Shown here piece after piece: positions 34,167 through 40,751 of a DNA stretch of 64,000 nucleotides. Position 1 is the stretch's first letter. Every line of letters starts with the position of its first letter. The DNA comes from Phycisphaerales bacterium. GTDB lineage: Bacteria > Planctomycetota > Phycisphaerae > Phycisphaerales > SM1A02. Both the position numbers and the translations under genes were made by a program. The notes beneath the pieces are model-generated. The model saw only the letters and a list, made by a program, of their open reading frames with translations. It did not search any database and had not been told where the DNA came from. The DNA is taken from assembly GCA_028278245.1 (NCBI GenBank), contig JANQEQ010000055.1:1-64000 (forward strand), in the 5' to 3' direction.

Positions 34167-34763
34167 TCAACCAATATATTTTTCGTGCAATTCTGTAAGT
34201 AATGTCAAATCACCCTGATCGGCGGTAACGATCGCCTTCAGATATTCCTCGCGGATGATACTGACTGATCCAAGATGCTCTTCCGGCCAACGGGTGGGTT
34301 CGGAACCATGTTTGATGAGCCAGATGTTGGCGAGCAAACGTGACCAACGACCGTTGCCGTTTTCAAACGGATGAATTTGCACCGCGCGATGATGCAGCAG
34401 CGCTGCCTGCTCAACAATGGTCATGTTTGAATCGCGCCAGACTTTCATATCCTCAGCGAGGTTGAGCATGGACGGCTCTATGAGATTAGGCGCGACGCCC
34501 AGATTTTTTTCTGATCGTCGGGGCTTACCCGCCCAGATCCAGACATCGCCGAACATTTCCTTATGCAACTTGAACATCCAGGCGTAGTTAAACGGGGCAG
34601 TACGATTGCTGGGAGGTGCAGCAAGATATTTAACTGCTGCTTTGCGGATGTTGTTTGCTTCATGACGGTTGAGCTCAGCACGCGACGATATGCCGGTAAT
34701 CTTGAGACCGGAGATATCATCCATCGGCGTCTCGCCGGGTATGGTGTCCCAGGTGTTCGTCAT
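34167..34763 (-). CDS. Fic/DOC protein, mobile mystery protein B type
   Basis: Fic proteins usually transfer AMP to target proteins. The 198-residue protein has the active-site motif HPFENGNGR (131-139) and the mobile mystery protein B layout: GETPMDDISGL, SSRAELNRHEANNI, LHKEMFGDVWIWAGK, SEKNLGVAPNLI. The ATG at 34763 overlaps the stop of the upstream HTH gene as ATGA and decides the start. The HTH-Fic order and coupling match the mobile mystery A/B pair, which resembles a toxin-antitoxin or defence unit. Confidence 0.9.
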   Translation of the reverse strand: MTNTWDTIPGETPMDDISGLKITGISSRAELNRHEANNIRKAAVKYLAAPPSNRTAPFNYAWMFKLHKEMFGDVWIWAGKPRRSEKNLGVAPNLIEPSMLNLAEDMKVWRDSNMTIVEQAALLHHRAVQIHPFENGNGRWSRLLANIWLIKHGSEPTRWPEEHLGSVSIIREEYLKAIVTADQGDLTLLTELHEKYIG

Positions 34764-35137
34764 GCCCACAACTTTCTGCGTGAGCCGGCCAGGAGTTCGT
34801 ACATGGTCTGGGTGACCATCAGTTTTTGGGCTTCATCATCCACCGCCTGCCCTTCCAGACCGGAGGTTCCCTGCACCATCGCCACCAGACGCTCGGCTTT
34901 TTGGCGAGCCTGTTGCCGACACATTTGATCAACATCCAGCAGCGGCCGGAGTGAGACATCCAGGCCAAGCGCCCGGGCGATCTTCTCCACCGATTCAAAG
35001 GTGGCGGTGTGATAATCATCCAGCACGCGATTCACCGTCGACAGCGATACCCCGCTGCGTCGGGCGAGCAGAGCGTGGCTCATGCCCAACTCCCGGCACC
35101 TTTGCTTGAGATCAACCTGGGGTAATGGAGCGGCCAT
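34760..35137 (-). CDS. XRE-type HTH protein, mobile mystery protein A type
   Basis: The ATG at 35137 has AGGA 6 nt upstream; a start 18 nt earlier lacks one. The 125-residue protein has an XRE helix-turn-helix (CRELGMSHALLARRSGVSLSTVNRVLDDYHTATFESVEKIARALG) and a tail (RQQARQKAERLVAMVQGTSGLEGQAVDDEA) resembling that of mobile mystery protein A. Its probable role is repressor and antitoxin of the coupled Fic protein. It is preceded by an AT-rich region (35160-35330) that probably holds its promoter and that of the divergent gene at 35330. Confidence 0.82.
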   Translation of the reverse strand: MAAPLPQVDLKQRCRELGMSHALLARRSGVSLSTVNRVLDDYHTATFESVEKIARALGLDVSLRPLLDVDQMCRQQARQKAERLVAMVQGTSGLEGQAVDDEAQKLMVTQTMYELLAGSRRKLWA

Positions 35138-35329
35138 ACAGGATCCTATCGTCATCCGAGCATGAAAAACATATCATATATGATATTAAATTCCACATAT
35201 TTATTTCATTTGTGACATTATCTGATTGCAATGGTATTCAACGAAGTTAAATTAATTTACAATTTATTCAAAATCTATTTGCATATTTCACAATAAATAT
35301 CAATATTGTTGAAGTTGATGTGAGTAACT

Positions 35330-37180: not shown

Positions 37181-38785
37181 TTGTGTGGGGGGGTGGGGGT
37201 TGTGTATGTGTGGGGGGGAAGCGATGATGCATTGGTGAAACACAGACGGACTAACACATCGACAAATGATCTCGGCCGGGAGCAGCGCGCTGAAGTTGTC
37301 GATGCACAAGCTGCCGACGGCAAGACGACCTGGCTCGTGCTGGGTCTGGTCACGCTGGGATGTGTAGCTCGGCTGCCCCGTCTGAGTGAAAGTCTCTGGT
37401 ATGACGAGATCGCTGCCTGGCTGGATTACGCGCAGCAGGGGCCGCGAGTGATTGTCACGACATACTTTGATCCGGCCAATCATATTTTCCACACATTACT
37501 TTCCTCTGTGTCGGTTCAATGGCTGGGTTCGTGGTTTGGCCAGGAGTTGGCATTGCGCTTCCCGGCATTTGTGTTTTCACTACTTTCGATCGTGATGGTG
37601 TATTTTCTGGGGCGGGTTGTTGCGGGCAGGCGTGTTGCGTTCTTTGCGGGTTTGTTCGCTGCGGTTCTTCCGGTATCTGTGCTTGAAGGTGTTGAAGCGC
37701 GCGGCTACAGCATGATGATCTGCGCATCTGCCGCCTCCACGTGGATAATCCTCTCTGCCTTTCAGCGCAATGCGTGGTGGAAGTGGATTATCTATGCAGT
37801 GATCTGCGCGCAGGGAATCTGGGCGCACATGATGACGGTGTGGATCGTTGTTGGTCACTTTTTCTGGTTGCTCGGCCGCGGCGCAAGTATTACATCAATC
37901 ATACACCATCAAGAACCCACTCGTCTCCGACAACAAATTATGTTCAGGGGGATGGGAATAACGGCAATTTTTCTGACGGCGCTGGTAACGTTTGTGCTGT
38001 ATTTACCTGCGATCGAAGACATCTGGCAGATGCGCAATCAGTTCACAGCGGAAACGGGTGATGAGCCAAGAGTACTGGGGGAAGAAGGATTGCATACGCT
38101 TCTCCAGTTAGGTGGTTCGTGGTATTGGTGGGCGACAATCCCCGGACTTGTGCTTTTCGCGCTGGGTATATTTGCTTCCATGCGATCAAAAGGATTACCG
38201 GATCAAACATCGGGTAAAACTTATGTTCATCCGGGTTCTACGCTACTGCTTTCTCTGCTGGGACTGCCGATCATGGCGATTGTTCTTTACTTTGCCAATT
38301 CGTGGATGTATGCGCGCTTTGCCCTGTTTGTGTTGCCGGGCGCCATTCTGGCCATGGCAATCGGCCTGGAGTGGTTGTGGAGAAAGAACACTATTTGCGG
38401 AGGGATCATGCTACTTTGTGTGGGGGGGTGGGGGGTAGGGGATTTGAGTGTGCGTCCACCGAAACAGCCGTTACGTGAGGCTGCGGAAATCGTACGCACA
38501 GCACGCACTCCCGGGGAGGAGGTGTCCATTATTGGATTGCGACATCGCGTGATGAAAGTGTATGCTGCCGATCTGTATCCCGATTACATCTCAAACCGTG
38601 GCCAGGATTTCTCTCACCAGTTTGCACGTTCCAAGTCACATTGGATTATTATTTTGTATCCGCATCTTCTCCAGCAGGATCAGTGGGACACGTTTCAACG
38701 ACATGGTTACGTCAAGCATGCACACCTTGACGGCTGGGTCGATTGGGGCAGAGGCGATGTGATCGTGTTACAATACAAAGATTAA
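37181..38785 (+). CDS. Membrane glycosyltransferase-like (GT39/ArnT type) protein
   Basis: A protein of about 500-534 residues with many hydrophobic helices. SLWYDEIAAWLD at about 70 matches the conserved first-loop motif with the catalytic DE of ArnT/PMT-type enzymes, which use polyprenyl-phosphate sugars. A C-terminal soluble part of about 100 residues ends WGRGDVIVLQYKD. The start is uncertain because the first 20 codons run through GTGTGGGGGGG tracts (37181-37220); a GTG at 37235 is possible. A second G-tract at 38419-38438 is in frame (VGGWGVG). The stop TAA overlaps the stop of the retron gene on the other strand. Confidence 0.8.
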   Translation: MCGGVGVVYVWGGSDDALVKHRRTNTSTNDLGREQRAEVVDAQAADGKTTWLVLGLVTLGCVARLPRLSESLWYDEIAAWLDYAQQGPRVIVTTYFDPANHIFHTLLSSVSVQWLGSWFGQELALRFPAFVFSLLSIVMVYFLGRVVAGRRVAFFAGLFAAVLPVSVLEGVEARGYSMMICASAASTWIILSAFQRNAWWKWIIYAVICAQGIWAHMMTVWIVVGHFFWLLGRGASITSIIHHQEPTRLRQQIMFRGMGITAIFLTALVTFVLYLPAIEDIWQMRNQFTAETGDEPRVLGEEGLHTLLQLGGSWYWWATIPGLVLFALGIFASMRSKGLPDQTSGKTYVHPGSTLLLSLLGLPIMAIVLYFANSWMYARFALFVLPGAILAMAIGLEWLWRKNTICGGIMLLCVGGWGVGDLSVRPPKQPLREAAEIVRTARTPGEEVSIIGLRHRVMKVYAADLYPDYISNRGQDFSHQFARSKSHWIIILYPHLLQQDQWDTFQRHGYVKHAHLDGWVDWGRGDVIVLQYKD

Positions 38786-40560
38786 CATGAATTAGTTAAT
38801 TTTGTACCAACTCCTGGTATATCACGCCAATGTCCTATTGCTATCGCCTGACCATAGGGTCGATGTGGAGCATCGTTTGCTGGTTTTCTAAACGAATTTT
38901 CAACCATTACGCCGATACAATACCCGTTTGCATCAAGCAGTGGGGCACCGCTTATGGCAGGTCCACCCTCAAAGGACACTGTGAGAAACCGGGCTTCTCT
39001 ATAGCCTTTCATTACAGATTCAATTCTACCCACATGCATTACTAAACCTACGTGACGAAAGGCAATATCTGGATACCCGAGAGCAATTACCTCCTCCCCG
39101 ATAACCGGTAACCTCTCTTGCGTCAGGATAAATGAATTGGTCCATTCCTCTGGTAGTTCTGCGGATCCAAACGCAAGATCAATGTCGCCCTGTTCACCGC
39201 ATATTGCTTTGATGCAAGTTAATTCAATTGAAGAATCAAGTGGTAACGTGAGATAAAGATTTCGTTCCACCTCGTTGCCATCGGAAGCTCTAAGTATTCT
39301 ATTATGACCAGCAGTCAGGAACTGTATTGGCCCAACCCGGAACGCAGTTCCATAATTTTCATCCTCTGTATTAGGGTTTACACACAGTAGTCGAAACACG
39401 CAATCACTGTACTTGCTTGACCAGAGTTTCCAATTTGGAGAGAGCCTACTTCTTCGTTGAATCGGCTGTCCGTTTTGATCGCAAAGCGGTATTGGTGATT
39501 TAAAAATATTTCTATTAATGCGTAGAGCGTCATTTTGTAATCGGCGTACAATATGGTCTTCTGAACCTCGTACCATCGAAAGATAAGCAAGCTTTCCCCG
39601 AATGACATTCAAAATCCAATTCCCAGAATCGCCAAGGATTGTGCGATGATGTTTCTCCGCGTGGATCTTTGCTGCGGAGGCAATGCCCACGGTTTGGCAG
39701 GAATGTATCAGTGCACGAAGTTCTCGAATGTAATTGCGAGGTACATTCACGAACTCGTTTACTACTAGTCCGGTTGCCATCTGCCGACGCAAAGAAGTAC
39801 GTAATCGAGTCTTTCCATCACGGATTGAAAACTTATGGTTGTTTATTGTTTCAACAAGATTCTTTCCAAGGTGACAGGTGCCTAAAGCATCGATTGTGGC
39901 AACTTCTGGAGGGAATTTGCGCTGGTTTGTCGAGAATGAAATATCATCGGCATATCTCGTGTAAACGAGTCGATATTCTTTTGCGAGTTCAAGAAGTGAA
40001 TAATCGAGCGGTGAGCAGACCATGTTTGCTAGAATTGGCGACGTAGGTGCACCTTGTGGAAGGTGACCATCATCATGACACGCGATCTGTCCAATCGTAA
40101 GCGCAGCGCCTGATCCTAGAGAATATGGTGCTGATTTTAGAATACCTCGCACTCGACCAATGTGTATGGAAGGGAAAAAATTATCGAGGTCAAGATTTAG
40201 AACATACCGTTTGCCAATATGTAACTGGGCATTATCGAGAATACACCTGTCGCGAGTGAAACCTGTAACGCACATCCTCGGGTTGAATATGAGAGTTAGG
40301 ACACGAAGTAGTTTATCCTGCAATATTCGAATGTTCTTTGTTGGTATGCAGATCCGACGTACTTCACCATCCTTCTTCGGTATGGCATGTTCGGAATAAT
40401 GTTTTCGTTCTTTAGCAACATAAAGAATCCAACGTAAAGTTCGTGGTGCTATTTCCAAAAGTGCAGCAACATCTTTCTGAGATTCCAGTTCCCTGAATTT
40501 CCTTCGAATATCAGAGTCTGAAGCAATCAGATAAGGTTTGAGTGATGTGGCTCGAGGCAC
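38782..40560 (-). CDS. Retron reverse transcriptase fused to trypsin-like protease
   Basis: The 592-residue protein starts at GTG 40560. Residues about 15-320 are a reverse transcriptase: NAQLH (110-114, the retron NAXXH motif), LDLDNFFPS (123-131), QGAPTSPILANM, YADD (203-206) and ATGLVVN (262-268, the VTG motif of retrons with Ala for Val). From about 385 a trypsin-like peptidase follows: TAGH (H419), DLAF (D461) and ISGAP (S537) give an intact-looking triad. Retrons make a branched RNA-DNA molecule, and many guard against phage; here the effector would be the protease. A matching msr-msd candidate lies directly upstream. The gene is AT-rich relative to its neighbours, which suggests transfer. 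Confidence 0.93.
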   Translation of the reverse strand: MPRATSLKPYLIASDSDIRRKFRELESQKDVAALLEIAPRTLRWILYVAKERKHYSEHAIPKKDGEVRRICIPTKNIRILQDKLLRVLTLIFNPRMCVTGFTRDRCILDNAQLHIGKRYVLNLDLDNFFPSIHIGRVRGILKSAPYSLGSGAALTIGQIACHDDGHLPQGAPTSPILANMVCSPLDYSLLELAKEYRLVYTRYADDISFSTNQRKFPPEVATIDALGTCHLGKNLVETINNHKFSIRDGKTRLRTSLRRQMATGLVVNEFVNVPRNYIRELRALIHSCQTVGIASAAKIHAEKHHRTILGDSGNWILNVIRGKLAYLSMVRGSEDHIVRRLQNDALRINRNIFKSPIPLCDQNGQPIQRRSRLSPNWKLWSSKYSDCVFRLLCVNPNTEDENYGTAFRVGPIQFLTAGHNRILRASDGNEVERNLYLTLPLDSSIELTCIKAICGEQGDIDLAFGSAELPEEWTNSFILTQERLPVIGEEVIALGYPDIAFRHVGLVMHVGRIESVMKGYREARFLTVSFEGGPAISGAPLLDANGYCIGVMVENSFRKPANDAPHRPYGQAIAIGHWRDIPGVGTKLTNSC

Positions 40561-40562
40561 GG

Positions 40563-40703
40563 CTGTCCCTCCCCCGACATTCGACCTCCCGTCCCGAGAT
40601 CAACTGCTAGCCAGTCAATGGTGAGCGAGATCAGCTGATGAGGAAAATAAGCACGTTAGCTGTTGCGGAGCGCAACAGAAAGCAATAGTCGGGGAAGAGA
40701 CAG
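40563..40703 (-). ncRNA. Candidate retron msr-msd RNA
   Basis: On the minus strand a1 (CTGTCTCTTCCCCGAC, plus 40688-40703) pairs with a2 (GTCGGGGGAGGGACAG, plus 40563-40578) over 16 bp with two G-U pairs and no mismatch. The helix encloses about 109 nt. Shortly after a1 comes a hairpin CTGTTGCG-CTC-CGCAACAG (the msr-type stem), then a region with ATCAGCTG pairing with CAGTTGAT (a likely msd stem). a2 ends 2 nt before the reverse transcriptase start codon, and it contains the only ribosome site of that gene. The architecture a1-msr-msd-a2-RT fits a retron; the branching G is not assigned. Confidence 0.8.
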
Positions 40704-40722: not shown

Positions 40723-40751
40723 ATGATCACCTTAGTGGCATATATTGTCAA
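40723..40751 (-). promoter_or_regulatory. Promoter of the retron operon
   Basis: TTGACA (40746-40751) and GATCAT (40723-40728, 4 of 6 to the -10 consensus) are 17 nt apart on the minus strand. Transcription would start near 40716, about 13 nt before a1. Confidence 0.5.

Follow-up and report, generated by a model that had tools for sequence, protein, structure and literature searches.

Retrons serve bacteria as antiviral systems. The msr of a retron RNA forms one to three hairpins of about 7-10 bp with loops of 3-10 nt, and the msd forms one hairpin with a long stem of about 10-50 bp. The RNA is closed by complementary ends of about 8-30 nt, and the priming guanosine is placed just 3' of the a1 end, usually in the context TAGC, with variants (PMC6868368). 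Retron Eco2 (Ec67; RT-Toprim, type I-C) carries its effector, a Toprim RNase, fused to the C-terminus of the reverse transcriptase (RT). The Eco2 complex is a self-inhibited trimer that msDNA holds together, and its activation appears to involve a phage nuclease (PMC12405507). Type XI retrons (RT-Protease_XI in PADLOC) are a class in the retron scheme of Mestre et al. 2020 (cited in PMC9252829). They have in common a single gene for a retron RT with a C-terminal trypsin-like protease, and an msr-msd directly upstream. Some other immune systems join a trypsin-like protease to a sensor, and the protease then activates a nuclease partner (PMC12799240). A literature search, with many journals outside its coverage, returned no study of type XI retron function.

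Here, we describe a locus in a 64,000-nt stretch of Phycisphaerales DNA, the whole of which is referred to as the window. Positions 40563-40703 of its minus strand and the adjoining gene very probably constitute a single-gene type XI retron with the msr-msd RNA delimited below. The assignment of the locus as a further member of the type XI retrons, a known but barely studied kind, is well supported. Its distinctive trait is that the stem closing the RNA extends over the start signal of the enzyme gene as well. The features of the locus, all on the minus strand, are as follows.

40723-40751, promoter-like sequence TTGACA-17-GATCAT, with 10 of 12 consensus bases
40688-40703, a1 arm CTGTCTCTTCCCCGAC, pairing with a2 (mean probability 0.998); the pairing is kept in homologues
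40683, candidate priming (branch) guanosine in TATTGC, putative
40660-40678, msr hairpin CTGTTGCG-CTC-CGCAACAG, 8 bp with a 3-nt loop (z -2.1)
40652-40659, box CTAACGTG 3' of the msr hairpin; AACGTGCTT is identical in the nearest homologue, L232
40579-40651, msd, template of the DNA strand, with approximate limits set by its position between msr and a2
40582-40579, GAAT box closing the msd, conserved in L232 and many relatives
40563-40578, a2 arm GTCGGGGGAGGGACAG, containing the Shine-Dalgarno (SD) sequence GGGGGAGG (40575-40568)
38782-40560, RT-protease fusion of 592 aa with a GTG start (PADLOC RT-Protease_XI; Pfam RVT_1 and Trypsin_2)
39496-40560, retron RT domain, about residues 1-355 (VIA Z 31 to retron Eco2; NAQLH at 110, YADD at 203)
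38800-39447, predicted serine protease domain with an HtrA/DegS-like trypsin fold (about residues 372-587; H419, D461 and S537 as triad)

About 4 kb from the retron, the window also encodes a protein with a Fic domain and, upstream of it, an HTH protein (34167-35155, minus strand). This pair matches 'mobile mystery protein' B (above the cut-off) and A (below the cut-off), and is probably toxin-antitoxin-like.

A retron reverse transcriptase with a predicted protease domain

The fusion protein matched the PADLOC profile RT-Protease_XI over residues 20-555 with an E value of 1.1e-127, ranking above RT-TIR_XII (second best, E 4e-113) and RT-Toprim_I-C. An initial annotation of this DNA had recognized an RT by its NAXXH and YADD motifs, and had read the adjacent RNA as a candidate retron RNA. 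The motifs were located at residues 110-114 (NAQLH) and 203-206 (YADD), and profiles, solved structures and the RT tree agree that the enzyme is a retron RT. Its VTG motif reads ATG (MATGLVVN, residues 262-264). In comparisons with solved structures, the best sequence matches of the RT were retrons Ec67 and Ec86.

The predicted structure of the protein (pLDDT 84) falls into two halves. Residues 13-363 match retron Eco2, the nearest among solved structures (Z 31; identity of 34%), and the C-terminal half (about residues 372-587) matches HtrA/Deg proteases (Z 21-23). H419, D461 and S537, whose sequence contexts TAGHN, DIDLA and ISGAP are as expected, are invariant among 19 aligned RT-proteases. 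The Eco2-like RT, the HtrA/Deg match and the triad therefore identify a retron RT with a fused protease, apparently a trypsin-fold serine protease with its triad residues intact, as judged from sequence and the structural model. This domain, which makes the system type XI, had been missed by the initial annotation. Its nucleophile motif is (A/G)(I/L)SG(A/G)P, compared with GNSGGP in much of type XI. The effector also sets the protein apart from Eco2, whose C-terminal domain is a Toprim RNase, and from the type XII retrons (RT-TIR), which have a TIR effector and an RT of a different clade but share the a1-msr-msd-a2-RT order.

The msr-msd RNA of the window

The inverted pair with two G-U pairs that had been claimed for the minus strand was found to be a perfect 16-bp helix: 16 of 16 positions pair between 40703-40688 and 40578-40563, with the mean probability of 0.998 calculated in a 257-nt transcript context. 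A stem search of the surrounding 319 nt (G-U allowed, loop 60-200) recovered such a stem in none of 400 dinucleotide shuffles, and the whole window contains only two further perfect stems of this kind, one on each strand. The 141-nt RNA folds at -61.3 kcal/mol, compared to a shuffled mean of -41.5 kcal/mol (z -5.5; 0 of 200 shuffles). The complementary ends that close a retron RNA are thus represented by 16 bp, conserved with compensation at homologous loci. The enclosed hairpin is also present as described, at 40678-40660 (8 bp), has the dimensions of an msr hairpin and is conserved in relatives. The msr lies 5' of the msd, and the RT gene follows both in the same orientation.

Two elements of the original description held only in part. 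The likely msd stem appears in the predicted fold, but its strength is not above chance, with z scores of -0.87 as RNA and -0.12 as DNA. The promoter TTGACA-17-GATCAT exists at 40751-40723, but it constitutes weak evidence because promoter-like sites are no more frequent in the region (6 sites) than in shuffled sequence (4.5 expected). In L232, a TTGACC-18-TATACT stops 7-8 nt short of a1.

The putative priming guanosine at 40683 is invariant in a five-sequence alignment of the window's clade. It sits 5 nt past the end of a1 in the context TTGC, not the usual TAGC, and its TATTGC context is absent from the variants listed in PMC6868368.

Relatives of the RT-protease

Scans and genome searches gathered well over 100 retron-RT loci, about 40 of them encoding RT-proteases. 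A single-protein query of genome and viral contigs found no relatives, and an alignment query did find them. The nearest were L232 (59% RT identity), then L071, L231, L233 and L234. In the RT tree, these five and the window form an all-protease clade (support 100/98), within which the window and L232 are joined (support 100/100). The clade consists of an Acidobacteriota MAG (L071) and genomes of the window's own order. The remaining RT-proteases are located elsewhere on the tree, and the proteobacterial type XI clades are separate from that of the window. Mapping of the protease label onto the RT tree requires 11 changes, at least 3 of them forced by supported branches, and therefore type XI, as a class defined by its effector, is probably not one lineage. 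This pattern suggests that proteases joined retron RTs more than once.

The RT-protease gene of the nearest homologue (L232/L238) is split by about 1.5 kb (L239, G749:C1:99900-101500), and this copy is therefore probably inactive. The insert contains an IS256-like transposase frame on the opposite strand, assigned by eye from the sequence.

Conservation of the RNA at homologous loci

Comparison of the window with L232 revealed 51 of 65 identical positions across inner a1, the msr and the start of the msd, and 22 of 27 across the GAAT box and inner a2, giving identities of 78-81% for the two segments. The msr hairpin and the boxes are conserved, as is the GGGAGG of the msd. The outer arms of L232 have changed relative to the window and still pair. 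One inner a1/a2 pair is A-U in one locus and G-C in the other, and one msr pair is U-A versus G-C, which makes two compensated changes. The pair counts of these two sequences alone do not beat shuffles, so the argument from conservation rests on the wider set.

Long-range helices were found directly upstream of the RT at most related loci, many of them exceeding all shuffles. In L231-L234, the a1/a2 arms comprise roughly 11-18 pairs. Across 12 related loci, 92% of the cells in the a1/a2 and msr helices were paired, compared to 31-52% when the helices were slid, and 11 pairs had changed on both sides, a number reached in 0 of 500 shuffles. The homologous msr hairpin was 100% paired in 12 relatives. 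Other relatives carry a TAATG/AACGT similar to the box after the msr hairpin, and other homologues have the same layout with unrelated but pairing arms. The a1/a2 pairing expected of a retron RNA is thus kept, with compensated arms, at homologous loci.

MAFFT failed to align the arms across groups, and they were therefore compared by stem search, cross-pairing and hand-given structure. The arms of L232, L234 and L235-L237 were placed by visual inspection and then tested by folding, the automatic stem finder having picked wrong stems. In L071, the Acidobacteriota relative, no convincing a1/a2 was found. When the arms of 15 loci were cross-paired, cognate a1/a2 duplexes averaged -29.2 kcal/mol and non-cognate ones -9.2 kcal/mol, and only 1 of 210 non-cognate duplexes was as good as the cognate. 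This control leans towards pairing because the arms were chosen for pairing, a concern reduced by the shuffle tests and by the msr that the loci share.

Loci numbering 12, most of them from Cyanobacteria and Chloroflexota, were used for a covariance model (R2) from which the window was excluded. When all positions of the 38-43 kb region were scored, its best place was 40567-40699 on the minus strand (13.6 bits, E 0.089); at this place the a1/a2 arms, the hairpin and the TATTG and GAAT boxes are all in register. The same model finds held-out relatives with E values of 1e-5 to 0.03. The match in the window is marginal, and under default filters on the whole window the locus was not reported; the model is therefore supporting, not decisive. 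A model from one alphaproteobacterial group (R1) was too narrow and did not find the window, and an Rfam scan gave no match at the gathering score. Two Rfam snoRNA matches were rejected, since they lie on the other strand at chance level (E 0.5-4).

Several cyanobacterial retron-RT loci (L064, L065, L074, L076, L077 and L079) have in common a highly conserved msr TATTGATTTCC, whose stem carries the loop TTGATCCTGC, and, ahead of a2, a GAATAC box. In L064 and L065, a hypothetical protein and an ATPase follow downstream. A plasmid of Nostoc sp. HK-01 (L068, 2405-4663) encodes a retron-like RT fused to a domain that by eye resembles a MoxR-type AAA ATPase, with a clear a1/a2 and msr upstream of the RT.

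Overlap of a2 with the translation start

Just as had been stated, 2 nt separate the end of the a2 arm from the GTG at 40560, compared to the roughly 17 nt between a2 and the start codon that are typical of Toprim retrons. The claim that a2 holds the sole ribosome site of the RT gene also agrees with our analysis: the SD sequence lies in a2, and the GTG is the only in-frame start near the N-terminus. An out-of-frame ATG at 40581 was considered and rejected, as the frame and homology to L232 favor GTG. In the folded RNA, the SD zone is fully paired (unpaired probability about 0) and the GTG nearly so. Pairing of the SD and start is similar in L232 and in the alphaproteobacterial type XI group, while medians elsewhere are about 0.4 unpaired. 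In L231 and L233, the start is within or beside a2 and part of the SD is free, so the type of overlap is conserved but its details are not.

With start codons chosen automatically, a2 overlapped the start codon or lay within the coding sequence in 12 of 29 RT-protease loci, compared to 8 of 91 others; the 12 are not independent, because many belong to one alphaproteobacterial lineage. In three RT-TIR loci from the window's own order (L235, L236 and L237), an a2 of 14-17 nt lies inside the first RT codons, and codon changes in a2 are matched by changes in a1.

Since a2 holds the SD and abuts the GTG, a transcript folded as the ncRNA is probably not translated. The initial annotation had suggested that the helix could control RT translation. 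This is plausible given the same overlap in L232 and in the alphaproteobacterial lineage. That the a1/a2 helix acts as a translation switch in these two lineages is a tentative proposal, to which we give somewhat less than even chances. The literature search, with the coverage stated above, found no paper on an a2 that covers a ribosome site.

Alternative explanations

The overlap could also be read as the whole function of the helix, which would then be a translation-control leader hiding the SD, the RT being a retron relative that has given up msDNA or the need for it. The presence of the SD in an a2 abutting the start, the near-zero probability of its being unpaired, and the weakness of the msd stem would all fit such a leader. 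However, the msr hairpin and the TATTG, AACGTG and GAAT boxes kept in L232 would be superfluous for it, the retron layout also occurs at loci where a2 does not reach the SD, and the RT active-site motif is intact. We consider this reading very improbable. Less probable still, to the point of being barely credible, is the idea that the RT belongs to the DRT/UG defence class or is group II-like, not a retron RT, and that the inverted repeat beside it is incidental. Profiles of group II maturase, Drt2 and Drt3a do match the RT weakly, but retron profiles and structures score far higher, and recurrence of the inverted repeat with compensation in homologues already contradicts this view.

The locus might also be a type XI retron by descent that is degenerate and non-functional in this genome. 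Decay does occur, as seen in the L232/L238 gene split by a transposase insert, and a weak msd stem would be in keeping with it. In the window, however, the frame is intact, the catalytic residues of both RT and protease are kept, and the a1/a2 helix is perfect, and we judge degeneration unlikely.

Proposed mechanism and implications

For the locus as an intact single-gene type XI retron, we propose that one transcript, starting just upstream of a1, would carry the msr-msd RNA and then the RT-protease gene, the single RNA being used either as template or as message. The a1/a2 helix would close the RNA and expose the guanosine that closely follows a1 as the primer for the RT, which would copy a branched DNA of roughly 60-75 nt from the msd. 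We infer both msDNA synthesis and the branch site at this locus. The complex of RT, RNA and DNA would keep the fused HtrA-like protease inactive, and disturbance of the DNA or the complex by a phage would free the protease, whose proteolysis would stop the cell or the phage. Such restraint until phage disturbance is proposed because of the analogy with Eco2, and we regard repression and release of the protease by the complex as a moderately probable scenario.

In the protease-fused HamA, Avs1a and LmuA, the protease is N-terminal and activates an adjacent MBL-fold nuclease (PMC12799240); in the present fusion the protease is C-terminal. Among the nine neighboring ORFs scanned, there was no known protease partner and no MBL-fold nuclease, and the target may therefore be a host or phage protein.

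As the search found no study of type XI function, the msr-msd and its cognate RT-protease give direct test material: a delimited RNA, its enzyme and related loci with mapped arms could be used in tests of msDNA and of protease targets. Because a2 overlaps the RT start, a specific claim on retron expression likewise becomes testable. Repeated joining of proteases to retron RTs, as the tree suggests, would fit modular effector exchange in bacterial immunity. If the switch exists, each transcript would be either template or message, and the RNA scaffold would set the dose of its own potentially toxic protease, possibly with feedback through RT binding.
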